Source: Thiobacillus sp. 65-29
Lineage (GTDB): Bacteria > Pseudomonadota > Gammaproteobacteria > Burkholderiales > Thiobacillaceae
Assembly: GCA_001899775.1 (NCBI GenBank)
Contig: MKWN01000016.1
Coordinates: 1-64,000 of the forward strand
DNA: 64,000 nucleotides
Direction of reading: 5' to 3'
Positions 15,122-59,539 of this stretch are shown here, piece by piece (the stretch's first letter is position 1; every line of letters starts with the position of its first letter). The notes below the pieces were generated by a model. It was given only the letters and a program-made list of their open reading frames with translations, made no database searches and was not told where the DNA came from. A program made the translations under genes and the position numbers.

Positions 15122-15574
15122 TCAGTAACCCATCACCCGGACGAGTTCGGCGGCCTGTCCGAGTCGTGCCAGGCTGCCCTCACGGCTGAACACGAAGAGC
15201 GGTTCACCGCTCGCGGCATGCGCGGTGATACGCTGCGCCAGCGCACGCAGGTCGGGGGCCTCGTCGATCCACCACAGATGTCCGGCCGCCCACGCCGGTG
15301 CGGCCTGCATCACGCGCGGCGAGGACGGTGGTTCGACCCCCGGGGCCGGTTCAAGCACGAATACGAAATCCTCGCGGGTGTCGTACAGCCAGCGCGCCCA
15401 GTCTGCCCCTGACACGCCAGTCCAGGTGTCCGCGGAGAGGAAAACCGCCTGAAACTGGGTGTTGTAATAGGACAACAGCCAGTCCGCGGGAATATCTTCT
15501 GGATAGAAGCTTCCCCGCCATTCCGGGTGCTCCCAGCCGACGCTACCGACCCTGACCAGATGGCTGGTAATCAC
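15122..15574 (-). CDS. Short DUF72-like protein
   Basis: The 150-residue product begins VRVGSVGWEHPEWRGSFYPE, which matches the N-terminal pattern of DUF72 proteins (VGTSGWxYxxWRGxFYP). DUF72 proteins are normally about 240 residues or more; this one keeps the N-terminal strand-helix and a C-terminal segment but lacks the middle of the barrel. It may be a reduced family member or a decaying gene, although the reading frame is intact. The function of DUF72 is not established. It lies between mlaF and the promoter of the methionine-repeat gene, on the opposite strand to the latter. Confidence 0.6.
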   Translation of the reverse strand: MITSHLVRVGSVGWEHPEWRGSFYPEDIPADWLLSYYNTQFQAVFLSADTWTGVSGADWARWLYDTREDFVFVLEPAPGVEPPSSPRVMQAAPAWAAGHLWWIDEAPDLRALAQRITAHAASGEPLFVFSREGSLARLGQAAELVRVMGY

Positions 15575-15620: not shown

Positions 15621-15649
15621 TTGACAATATGCTAATGGGGACAAATAAT
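15621..15649 (+). promoter_or_regulatory. Near-consensus sigma-70 promoter of the methionine-repeat gene
   Basis: TTGACA (15621-15626) is an exact -35 box, followed after a 17-base spacer by AATAAT (15644-15649), five of six matches to the -10 consensus. The leader to the ATG at 15708 is about 50 bases. This is one of the best promoter matches in the window and suggests strong expression. An imperfect inverted repeat (ATTAGGCAT / ATGCTAAT) overlaps the -35 box and could be an operator. Confidence 0.65.
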
Positions 15650-15707
15650 CCAATCACGCTCTACATTTAACCGTGTTTTACGTTCGTTCATTTCTATGGA
15701 GTCGATC

Positions 15708-16595
15708 ATGAAAGTGAAGTCCCTCGTAGTTGCCCTCGGCCTGGCCATCGCCCCCGCCGCATTCGCCAATGGCACCGCCCCTGCCGGCGCCCCGGCACCT
15801 GCCGCTGGCGCGGCTGCCAATGTTCCGCAAACCAGCCAGCAGTGGCTGGAGCGCATGACCGACTTCACCCGCAACGCGTCCGCGTATCGTGACCCGAAGG
15901 TGTTCGTGCCTTGGGCGAACGCGGTCACCGAACCCGGCTTCTACACCCAGATGGGCGTCAACATGATGGAGCCGGGCAACTGGTACCGCATGATGGGCTC
16001 GATGATGGATCCGCGCTCGCTGTCCAACTACATGCAGTTCGCCGACCCCAACATGTACATGAAATGGATGGCGGCGTCGATGGACCCCAACTTCTACACC
16101 GCGCTGATGACCCAGCTGTTCGATCCGGGCAAGATGATGCGCTGGATGATGATGCCCATGGATCCGCAGATGTGGAACATGATGATGCAGTCCATGAACC
16201 CCGCCATGTACATGAAGTGGATGATGGCACCGATGGATCCGCGTCTGTGGCAGTTGATGATGCAGCCAATGAACCCCGCCATGTACACCGGCTGGATGAA
16301 CGCGTCGATGAACCCGGCCACCTACGGTTCGTGGGGCACCTGGATGAACCCCGCGACCTACGCCGCCCCCGTGGCTGGCGCCGCGCCTGCCGGGACGTTC
16401 AACTTCTTCGACCCGGCCAGCTGGATGGGCATGACCGCCCCCGCCGCGGGCCAGCCCGCAGCTGCCGGCACCCCGCCCGCTGCGGTCCCCGCTGGCACGT
16501 TCAACTTCTTCGATCCGAACACCTGGATGAACATGATGAACCCGGCGAACTTCTACGCCGCACCGCAGCAGGCACCGGCACCGGCCGCCAAGTAA
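15708..16595 (+). CDS. Secreted methionine-rich repeat protein, unknown function
   Basis: The 295-residue protein has a signal peptide (MKVKSLVVALGLAIAPAAFA) and an Ala/Pro-rich stretch, then about nine tandem copies of a 12-13 residue unit of the form [D/N]P-x-x-[Y/W/M]-x-x-[W/L/M]-M-x-x-[M/F], for example DPNMYMKWMAASM, DPGKMMRWMMMPM and NPAMYMKWMMAPM. I count about 43 Met in 295 residues. The C-terminus has two copies of AGTFNFFDPxxW in a Pro/Ala background. ATG 15708 is chosen over ATG 15696 because it opens the signal peptide. A paralogue with the same repeats and an OmpA domain lies at 58.2-59.5 kb. I do not recognise a described family. Metal (copper) binding or an extended scaffold are possibilities, not conclusions. 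Confidence 0.85.
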   Translation: MKVKSLVVALGLAIAPAAFANGTAPAGAPAPAAGAAANVPQTSQQWLERMTDFTRNASAYRDPKVFVPWANAVTEPGFYTQMGVNMMEPGNWYRMMGSMMDPRSLSNYMQFADPNMYMKWMAASMDPNFYTALMTQLFDPGKMMRWMMMPMDPQMWNMMMQSMNPAMYMKWMMAPMDPRLWQLMMQPMNPAMYTGWMNASMNPATYGSWGTWMNPATYAAPVAGAAPAGTFNFFDPASWMGMTAPAAGQPAAAGTPPAAVPAGTFNFFDPNTWMNMMNPANFYAAPQQAPAPAAK

Positions 16596-25476: not shown

Positions 25477-26171
25477 GGCGTCAGGACCGCGTCCTTGATG
25501 CCGGCGGCCTGCAGCCTGCGCACCGCTTCCTGGGCCGCCTCGCGCGTCGGGAACGGCCCCACGCGCACCCGGGTCAGCGGGCCCAGTCGATCAGTGTAGA
25601 CCGGCAAACCCGTGGCGCGCACGCGCGCCTCCAGCTCGCCCACCTTGGCCGCGTCCTGCAGGGCGGCAATCTGGACCGCGTAGCCCTCGCCTGCCGTAGG
25701 CTTGACGGTCACGGCGGATGGCGCAACCGGCTTGGCCGCCGGCCTGGGTGCCTCGGATTGCGGCAGCTTCGGCTTGGCTTCGGGTTTGGCTTCGGGTTTG
25801 GCTTCGGGTTTGGCTTCGGGTTTGGCTTCGGGTTTGGCTTCGGGTTTGGGTTTCGCTTCGGATGTGGGCGACGCGTGCTTGACCGGCTCCGGCACCGGCT
25901 CGGCCACCGCGCGTGGCGTATCCGGCTGCGGTGCGACGGGCAAGGGCTGCACCGGGGGCACGGATTCCGGGACCGCGGCTTCGCTTGACGCGGTCGGCAC
26001 GCTGGCGGGCGGCAGCACGGCCATGCGTACGGCGAGTGGGCTACCGGGCCGTGGCTCGTCTTCAAGCAGCAGGGGCAGGAGAATCACGGCCAGCAGCGTG
26101 AGCGCGACCGCACCGATCAGCCGGCGCCGGGCGCGACGCTTGAGATCGTTTTCACTGCTGGGTGGCGGCAT
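25473..26171 (-). CDS. dedD: SPOR-domain cell-division protein (DedD-like)
   Basis: The 232-residue protein has a short cytoplasmic tail, one membrane helix (about 18-37, IGAVALTLLAVILLPLLL), a long Pro/Ala/Glu/Lys linker and a C-terminal SPOR domain (about 155-230, YAVQIAALQDAAKVGEL ... TRVRVGPF). SPOR domains bind denuded septal glycans. The linker contains a six-fold KPEA repeat. The start ATG 26171 lies 20 bases inside folC. The folC-dedD-cvpA-purF order supports the name. Confidence 0.92.
   Translation of the reverse strand: MPPPSSENDLKRRARRRLIGAVALTLLAVILLPLLLEDEPRPGSPLAVRMAVLPPASVPTASSEAAVPESVPPVQPLPVAPQPDTPRAVAEPVPEPVKHASPTSEAKPKPEAKPEAKPEAKPEAKPEAKPEAKPKLPQSEAPRPAAKPVAPSAVTVKPTAGEGYAVQIAALQDAAKVGELEARVRATGLPVYTDRLGPLTRVRVGPFPTREAAQEAVRRLQAAGIKDAVLTP
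25772..25850 (-). repeat. In-frame 12-base tandem repeat in dedD
   Basis: About six near-identical copies of the 12-base unit GGCTTCGGGTTT (plus-strand reading) encode KPEA repeats in the periplasmic linker. Because the unit is a multiple of three, copy-number change by slippage would alter linker length without a frameshift. Confidence 0.85.
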
Positions 26172-54423: not shown

Positions 54424-54930
54424 CGCGGGATCGCCCGTCTGGCCAGCCGGGTTTCAGCGCGGCGGCCCTCACCAGGCCGGCCGACAACGGGGCATGATGG
54501 GGATGCCCACCCTGCGGCCCCGGATGTAACCGGATTGTCCATTCGCCGGCAGGGGGGGCTTGCGATGCGCAATGAGTAGCCGGGCGCGCCCTCCCGCAAG
54601 AGCACGCCCCACCTGTAGGAGCGGCGCCCTCGCCGCGATTGTCGGACGGTGGAATCATCACCCCATCGGGCCGGGGGCGGCCCTCCTACAACACCACGCC
54701 CCCCTGCAGGAGCGCCGCCCCCGCCGCGATTGTCGGGCGGTGGCGTCATCACCCCATCGGGCCGGGGGCGGCCCTCCTACAATGGCGCACCCCGCCTGCC
54801 TGCGTCTTTCCGCGGGACGCCGTTACGCGGCGCTTGATCCGGCACCTATTCCCCCGCATACTCTTCGCAATGCCGGTGGCAGCCCCGCCAGGGGCGCGCC
54901 CTGACGCCATCCATCCAACCGCTCATTTTC
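54424..54930. other. 507-base gene-free gap with repeats
   Basis: No supported gene is present here between the DsrC-family gene and the diguanylate cyclase. Several open frames on both strands are Arg/Pro-rich products of GC-rich palindromes. The main content is the tandem repeat at 54614-54781; the remainder holds shorter GGCCGG palindromes near 54468-54483. Confidence 0.7.
54614..54781. repeat. Two tandem REP/BIME-like units
   Basis: Unit 1 (54614-54690) and unit 2 (54705-54781) repeat with a 91-base period and high identity. Each starts TGTAGGAGCGGCG or TGCAGGAGCGCCG, continues through CCGCGATTGTCGG and TCATCACCCCATCGGGCCGG, and ends GCGGCCCTCCTACAA, so the two ends of a unit form inverted arms (GTAGGAG and CTCCTAC). 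This is the layout of a bacterial interspersed mosaic element made of paired REPs. Confidence 0.85.
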
Positions 54931-58192: not shown

Positions 58193-59539
58193 CTATTTCT
58201 TCGCCCCGGTGACCTCGATTTCCACGCGGCGGTTGGGTGCGAGACAGGCCTTCAGCGCGTCCTTGGCGAGCTTCATGTCGCAGTCGACGACCGGCTGGGT
58301 GTCGCCCATGCCTGCGGTGGCGAAGGTCTTGGCCTTCACGCCCTTGGACTTGAGATAGGCCGTCACGGCCTTCGCACGCGCCAGCGACAGTTTCTTGTTG
58401 TCGGACGCCTTGCCCATCTTGTCGGCGTGGCCCGTCACCTTGACGCTGTCGATCGCACCGAATGCTTTGATTTTGCCAACCAGATCATCGAGTTTGGCGC
58501 GCCCTTCCGGGGTCAGATCCTTGGTGGACGACTTGCCCGTCTTGAACAGGGCGTCACCGCCGAGACTCAGGGTCGACGGTGCGCCAGCCTGGACCGCGAA
58601 CCCGGCGGGCGCGGGCGCGGGCGCGGGCGCAGGGGCGGTTGCCGGCGCGGCGACGGGGGCCGCGGCGCCGGTCGCCGGTTGCGCCGGGCGCGGCGCCGGC
58701 AGGTAGGGGTTGGGGCCACTGCCGAAGGTGGGGAAGAACGACGTTGCCGCACCCGTCCCGGCCCCCCCGGCCGTTCCGGCCGAAGGATTGATGCCGAACA
58801 TGTTGAGCATGCTGAACCAGGTGCTCGGGTCCCACACGTTGATCGGGCTCGCCACCGGCGCATAACCCTGCACCTGCACCACCGGCTGCGCCGGATACAT
58901 GAACGTGCCCCAGGTCGAATTCGGCCCGCCGACCAGTTGCGGATTCAACGCGCCGCCCAGCATGCTGCCGTAGAGCTGCGGATTCATCGGCGCGAACATC
59001 AGCGCCATCGCGCGCGGATCGGTCGGCGTCATCATCCACTTCATGTAGAGATTGGGGTCCATCATCTGCATCCCCAGCTTCCACACTTTGGGATCCATCG
59101 GCAGCATCATCCAGCGCATCATCTTGCCGGGGTCCGCCATGTTCAGGGCCATCTGCGTGTACCACATGGGGTTCATCATGGCCCCACCCCAGCGCAGGTA
59201 GATGTTCGGGTCGAGGAACTGCATGTAGTTGGCCGTCGTGCCGGGCTGCATCATCGTCGTCATCGCACGCAGCAGGTTGCCCGGCTCCATCAGGTGGCTC
59301 GCCATGGCAGTGGCCATCGCGGGATCGGTCATCGCATTGGTCCACGCCGCGAACGCGGCCGGGTCCTTGAAGGCCGACGCATTCTGCGTGAAGTCCATCA
59401 TGCGGTTCATCCACTGGTCGGCCGATTGCGGCGTACCGGCCGGAACCGGCAGTACCGGGGGAAGAAGCTGGGCACCAGCCGGCGCGGACAGGCCGGCAAG
59501 TGCGGCCGTCAGGACGACCAGAAGGGATTTGACGTGCAT
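58193..59539 (-). CDS. Methionine-repeat protein with C-terminal OmpA domain
   Basis: The 448-residue protein has a signal peptide (MHVKSLLVVLTAALAGLSAP), about ten copies of the 12-13 residue repeat also found at 15.7 kb (DPNIYLRWGGAMM, DPGKMMRWMMLPM, DPNLYMKWMMTPT), a Pro/Ala-rich linker with (AP)n, and an OmpA/MotB peptidoglycan-binding domain from about 325 (VKVTGHADKMGK, LSLARAKAVTAYLKSKGV, PNRRVEIEV). It should be anchored to the cell wall from the periplasm. N-terminal regions align closely with the smaller paralogue (RMMDFTQNAS versus RMTDFTRNAS). The repeat family is not one I recognise. Confidence 0.88.
   Translation of the reverse strand: MHVKSLLVVLTAALAGLSAPAGAQLLPPVLPVPAGTPQSADQWMNRMMDFTQNASAFKDPAAFAAWTNAMTDPAMATAMASHLMEPGNLLRAMTTMMQPGTTANYMQFLDPNIYLRWGGAMMNPMWYTQMALNMADPGKMMRWMMLPMDPKVWKLGMQMMDPNLYMKWMMTPTDPRAMALMFAPMNPQLYGSMLGGALNPQLVGGPNSTWGTFMYPAQPVVQVQGYAPVASPINVWDPSTWFSMLNMFGINPSAGTAGGAGTGAATSFFPTFGSGPNPYLPAPRPAQPATGAAAPVAAPATAPAPAPAPAPAGFAVQAGAPSTLSLGGDALFKTGKSSTKDLTPEGRAKLDDLVGKIKAFGAIDSVKVTGHADKMGKASDNKKLSLARAKAVTAYLKSKGVKAKTFATAGMGDTQPVVDCDMKLAKDALKACLAPNRRVEIEVTGAKK

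Follow-up and report, generated by a model that had tools for sequence, protein, structure and literature searches.

The window, a stretch of 64,000 nucleotides from Thiobacillus sp. 65-29, encodes a member of an apparently undescribed, multi-copy family of coil-shaped repeat proteins, which are probably secreted. The probable role of these proteins is to help in sulfur handling beyond the cell membrane and not to bind copper, since some of the relatives of the target are encoded inside groups of genes for sulfide and thiosulfate oxidation. The family, its repeat, the predicted fold, the OmpA fusion of one paralogue, the operon links and the distribution were computed directly. No description of the family was found in the literature searched, which left out most subscription papers, and publication elsewhere is possible. 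As the first-pass annotation of this DNA had proposed, the repeat family is real and unrecognised: neither the target nor the relatives tested score above a Pfam or NCBIfam cut-off, and for the target itself Pfam returns no family at E 1 or better, while the best NCBIfam model reaches 16 bits against a cut-off of 50. To our knowledge, little is known about how solid sulfur is held in or near the periplasm outside the well-studied purple sulfur bacteria; the family supplies named genes with which this can be tested in sulfur oxidizers other than these.

The repeat and its predicted fold

The target, copy A of the family, contains 43 Met (the figure that had been given as approximate is exact), 13 Trp, and neither Cys nor His in its 295 residues. 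Its N-terminus, MKVKSLVVALGLAIAPAAFA, resembles a Sec signal when judged by eye, in agreement with the earlier claim of a signal peptide, and a GGAG lying 6 nt upstream of the ATG at 15708 favours this start over the in-frame ATG at 15696. The dipeptide [D/N/E]P is found at residues 62, 75, 88, 101, 113, 126, 139, 152, 164, 177, 189, 202, and 214, with spacings of 13, 13, 13, 12, 13, 13, 13, 12, 13, 12, 13, and 12. The repeat thus consists of 13 consecutive units and not of about nine, and it is more regular than had been described; three additional DP or NP motifs are located in the C-terminal tail. In total, 12 of the D/N/E-P dipeptides have another one 12 or 13 residues further on, whereas shuffled sequences (n = 5000) give 0.12 on average and never more than 2. 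The WM core attributed to the units is present only in some; what the homologues share in many units is the Pro, a Tyr at +3 and a Trp at +6 (50-row core alignment).

At the DNA level, the only repetition in the target is a 75-bp unit (25 amino acids, that is, two units) in 1.9 copies with 82% matches. The core is under purifying selection, with dN/dS values of 0.02–0.18 against seven orthologues, which bears out the view that the repeat is selected. A recent, strain-specific tandem expansion was rejected on the basis of the DNA repeat scan, the genome search and the selection analysis. Elsewhere in the window, short tandem arrays are present at 25766–25868 (a 12-bp unit in 7.1 copies, followed by an 18-bp unit in 2.2 copies), as well as a 91-bp repeat at 54579–54782 (2.2 copies, 88% matches). 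Upstream of the target, the near-consensus promoter that had been noted is present, and two promoter-like sites are found in the region of the target against 0.4 expected in shuffles; such a site is no proof of expression.

A structure prediction of the repeat array, which the first-pass annotation had suggested, was obtained with AlphaFold2 from 50 aligned sequences, and it yields a confidently predicted solenoid of about 12 short helices. In the model of the full protein, residues 41–200 have block-mean pLDDT values of 89–95 and consist entirely of helix and turn, the tail is poorly modelled, and the pTM is 0.57. The model of the core alone (mean pLDDT 87.9, pTM 0.74) is composed of 14 helices of 5–12 residues each, most of which begin at D/N-P turns. 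Tandem short helices are common to this model and to alpha-solenoid repeat proteins in general, among which the core model has no significant match in the PDB. Foldseek retrieves no PDB structure for the core model at E 10 or better; with the full model, the PDB yields just five matches, none below E 4.1, and the viral structures give a best E of 0.77; the best E in a PDB sequence search with the target is 0.36, and VIA-align gives no Z of 2 or more between the core and any of four realigned chains. The modelled fold has no significant PDB match, which is no proof of a new fold; if the model is true, the repeat architecture of the family is one that no solved structure matches significantly.

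Table 1. Features of the target gene, its upstream neighbour and paralogue B, in window coordinates
Feature	Position	Strand	Basis
Target gene (subfamily A) for a probably secreted repeat protein of 295 aa	15708..16595	+	ORF, translation, orthologues, purifying selection
Probable Sec signal peptide, residues 1–20	15708..15767	+	By eye
Repeat core, residues 38–218, D/N/E-P units of 12/13 residues, modelled alpha-solenoid of short helices	15819..16361	+	Periodicity, AlphaFold2 core model, unit profile
Ala/Pro-rich tail, two FNFFDP[AN][ST]WM motifs, low model confidence	16362..16592	+	Sequence; pLDDT <50 at residues 218–228, 241–262
Promoter-like TTGACA-N17-AATAAT upstream of target	15621..15649	+	Consensus scan, 11/12 matches
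Divergent upstream gene, DUF72-like, conserved neighbour, not a family member	15122..15574	-	Pfam 20.4 bits, below cut-off 25.3
Paralogue B, same repeat array plus C-terminal OmpA domain	58193..59539	-	48% identity, E 7.3e-63

Relatives of the target and their association with sulfur genes

Three copies of the family are detected in the own genome of the target at E 10 or better, namely the target (A), paralogue B and copy C (contig C53, locus L003). The domain that B shares with OmpA-like proteins (PF00691) scores 64.7 bits against a cut-off of 27.2; the N-terminal part of B is the repeat array, and the target is without the OmpA domain. Direct support for the earlier designation as envelope proteins is thus confined to this OmpA-fused paralogue. 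In the tree, A and B of the window fall into separate supported groups, each together with other named genomes, so that their duplication is older than the split of these genomes. At the loci L021, L024, L025, and L029, a second ORF encodes a tandem partner of copy C that has similar D/N-P motifs and is poorer in Met.

Homologues extend far beyond this strain, both in the genome searches and in the named ones. The family is found in 11 of 100 genomes in a search that included the own genome, and a profile search finds it in 52 of the 117 genomes belonging to the bacterial family of the target, which is Thiobacillaceae-like to judge from the nearest named relatives; these 52 cover 9 of 12 genera, with 3–10 profile matches in each carrier. 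Within the genus of the target, it is confined to 9 of 56 genomes. In a class-wide sample, it is present in 8 of 369 genomes, the same eight being recovered with a profile of close or of distant relatives. The named scan returned 119 relatives, for which 80 loci were kept; 27 of these loci are labelled Thiobacillus or Thiobacillaceae, and the remaining ones belong to Hydrogenophilales, Gallionellaceae, Tepidiphilus, or Proteobacteria with a less precise label.

Carriers of the family tend to be sulfur oxidizers. Among the eight class-level carriers, of which two pairs share a genus, soxB is over cut-off in seven (not in G310) versus 148 of 369 genomes overall, and dsrA likewise in seven (not in G192) versus 112 of 369; with kinship ignored, Fisher tests give p 0.008 for soxB and p 0.0012 for dsrA, which become 0.018 and 0.0036 when the own genome is left out. 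The number of genes for sulfide dehydrogenase (FCSD) also tracks the presence of the family: matches to FCSD_central, counted including weak ones under the curated cut-off, average 3.96 per genome in the 52 carriers and 1.48 in the 65 non-carriers of the bacterial family (kinship ignored). The same comparison within single genera, again with kinship ignored, gives 3.22 (n = 9) versus 1.38 (n = 47) in g1, the genus of the target (p 3.6e-5), and 4.5 versus 2.0 in g2 (p 0.018); in g322, the values of 3.0 and 2.2 do not differ significantly (p 0.34). A match to FCSD_central is present in 42 of the 47 non-carriers of the target's genus. The own genome contains sox and dsr genes, with soxB and dsrA over cut-off, as well as three FCSD loci; all of these lie on other contigs than its three family copies.

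Part of the family is operon-borne with fccAB and soxYZ. This was looked for in 38 regions that were hand-picked, not drawn at random, mostly around copies outside the groups of A and B, and that all contain a family ORF. By BLAST, FccB-like genes, SoxYZ-like genes, or both lie at most 6 kb from the family member in eight of them (L163, L166, L168, L179, L180, L186, L187, and L199), orthologous operons among the regions being non-independent events. FCSD_central is over the curated cut-off in L163, L166, L186, and L199, SoxY is over its cut-off in L163 and L187, and SoxZ in L163 and L199. A ninth region, L170, was left uncounted, as it has only an FccA-like cytochrome about 5 kb away. In L204 and L205, which were chosen since family and FCSD profile matches adjoin there, the order is NPYL-type protein, family member, fccA, and fccB (named by eye, FccB also by profile search). 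A further link comes from a different bacterial family, in which the genome G113 encodes a distant member, together with two profile matches of lower score, at 2.7–5.4 kb from SoxZ; SoxY is the neighbour of SoxZ, and both are over cut-off. A search for more relatives of G113 gave 4 of 94 genomes, all already known. In the 80 named loci, many of which hold A and B copies and 21 of which extend over less than 12 kb, no FccB-like or SoxYZ-like gene lies within 6 kb of a member, and L098 has an FccA-like cytochrome near one.

Proposed sulfur handling and alternative roles in the envelope

By analogy with sulfur-globule scaffolds, we tentatively favour a secreted solenoid whose role would be to bind or coat zero-valent sulfur or polysulfide. 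Sgp proteins are described as Sec-exported and repetitive, with regularly spaced Pro and extreme hydrophobicity in SgpA–C, and as encoded by 1–6 genes per genome; for SgpD, the spacing is reported to be of the P-x2-P type, with two confident helices and with large loops of low confidence (PMC10386293). By these descriptions, the family resembles SgpA–SgpD of Allochromatium vinosum in its regularly spaced Pro, its several copies, and its occurrence in sulfur oxidizers (sox, rDsr), and its N-terminus, judged by eye, may be a Sec signal; the Cys-free core and the Met columns with 94% hydrophobic residues would also fit this reading. It differs from SgpD, as far as described there, in its units of 12/13 residues within a confident helical solenoid, and in having OmpA-fused and fcc/sox-linked members.

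In such a mechanism, the alpha-solenoid would be secreted, with most of its short helices capped by an Asp/Asn-Pro turn and with conserved apolar Trp, Tyr, and Met/Leu, and it would occur as a free form (A), an OmpA-fused form (B) and operon-borne forms with fccAB/soxYZ. Flavocytochrome c and Sox would make zero-valent sulfur or polysulfide in the periplasm, the apolar, Cys-free surface of the solenoid would bind or coat it, and the OmpA domain of B would tether the repeat array to peptidoglycan. Export, wall tethering, sulfur binding, and the globule role are what we infer in this proposal. No sulfur gene lies beside the target, which is located between mla and cysS, and its role is therefore deduced from its operon-borne relatives, with which it would share it. 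A broader version, which we consider doubtful, would make the family an undescribed class of Pro-capped short-helix solenoids without a PDB match, whose free, wall-tethered and fcc/sox-operon variants nucleate or coat zero-valent sulfur non-covalently and tie it to the wall, replacing the classical Sgp in Thiobacillaceae-like bacteria.

The nearest rival, which is rather unlikely, is a scaffold for the periplasmic sulfur-oxidation enzymes, a protein-protein platform by which FCSD, SoxYZ, and cytochromes would be kept close to the wall and which would make no contact with sulfur. Alpha-solenoids commonly bind proteins, and both the position of part of the family next to fccAB and soxYZ and the existence of an OmpA-fused version would fit such a function. 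However, most of the conserved positions carry apolar or aromatic residues, which may also reflect core packing, and the A and B copies are not found in sulfur operons.

Unlikely as well is a general structural protein of the envelope, either a spacer of the cell wall or outer membrane or a lipid-related partner of Mla, for which the link to sulfur would be incidental. The target is oriented divergently to the DUF72-like gene and to the mla cluster, and convergently to cysS. Apart from the OmpA fusion, it is the neighbourhood that speaks in favour of this reading: among the 80 named loci, 21 of which span less than 12 kb, 39 have a family member no more than 4 kb from mla genes, 29 have one equally close to cysS, and 27 have both. 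Yet in nine of ten non-carriers searched (eight of the same genus and one of genus g3), the DUF72-like gene, mlaF, and cysS are adjacent and the gene is absent, with 9–80 nt between the aligned ends, so that the gene has been gained or lost cleanly at this site and mla is independent of it; in the tenth, G056, no DUF72-like match was found. A functional need of the mla operon for the target is weakened by these nine genomes. The copies in fcc/sox operons and the FCSD match number that tracks the presence of the family within the genus also count against a purely structural protein.

The methionine residues and other Met-rich proteins

The first-pass annotation had considered that the Met- and Trp-rich repeats could bind Cu(I) or other soft metals or shield against oxidants. 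Met as the functional element of either is not supported, as it is less well conserved than the skeleton formed by Pro, Asp, Tyr, and Trp. Across 51 homologues and 177 core positions, the columns at least 90% identical to the target comprise 17 of 18 Pro, 7 of 8 Asp, 5 of 9 Tyr, 4 of 11 Trp, and 3 of 37 Met. The Met content of the core ranges from 4.5 to 21.5% over these homologues, the main substitute being Leu; in many rows, Leu, Val, or Ala replaces Met, and no core contains Cys. In the 50-row core alignment, Met columns are on average 57% Met but 94% hydrophobic. Judged from the aligned sequences, this pattern argues against functions that depend on thioethers; the apolar positions of the solenoid may pack its core, form a binding surface, or do both. 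Since Pro, Asp, Tyr, and Trp are kept where Met changes, Met-based functions (copper, silver, or an oxidant sink) were dropped as the leading reading.

A protein whose Met residues are sacrificed to oxidants and then restored by methionine sulfoxide reductase is accordingly very unlikely. Its model would be MrpX, reportedly a periplasmic methionine-rich peptide of Azospira suillum, which the target resembles in its abundance of Met and in its probable export. Here, though, Met is not the conserved element: a consistently high Met content was not found in the 51 homologues, whose skeleton stays intact at the lowest core values, and no Msr gene was recognised by eye in the neighbourhoods examined. 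Binding of Cu(I)/Ag(I) or other soft metals through thioethers, to which a Met-rich and probably exported protein would lend itself, is the least probable of all: Met is poorly conserved and Cys lacking in the cores of the 51 homologues, the target is without His, and conserved thioether, Cys, or His ligand positions of the kind expected of a Met-motif copper binder were not found; no copper-handling gene was recognised by eye in the neighbourhoods examined.

Further proteins with NPY or Met-rich motifs are encoded close to sulfur genes or family members. In G113, near soxYZ, a CxxCH protein with a long MNPM-rich stretch (27% Met) is found (L123:11098–12090, minus strand), which has no Pfam or NCBIfam match. 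A protein with 9% Met that contains NPYM is located near an FCSD match of the own genome (L201:11269–12033, minus strand) and is maybe related to the NPYL-type proteins. The latter occur beside a family member at L204:1544–2257, as recognised by eye, and together with a family member in fcc/sox operons at L163:10790–11506 and L179:8704–9420, where DUF302 is over the Pfam cut-off.
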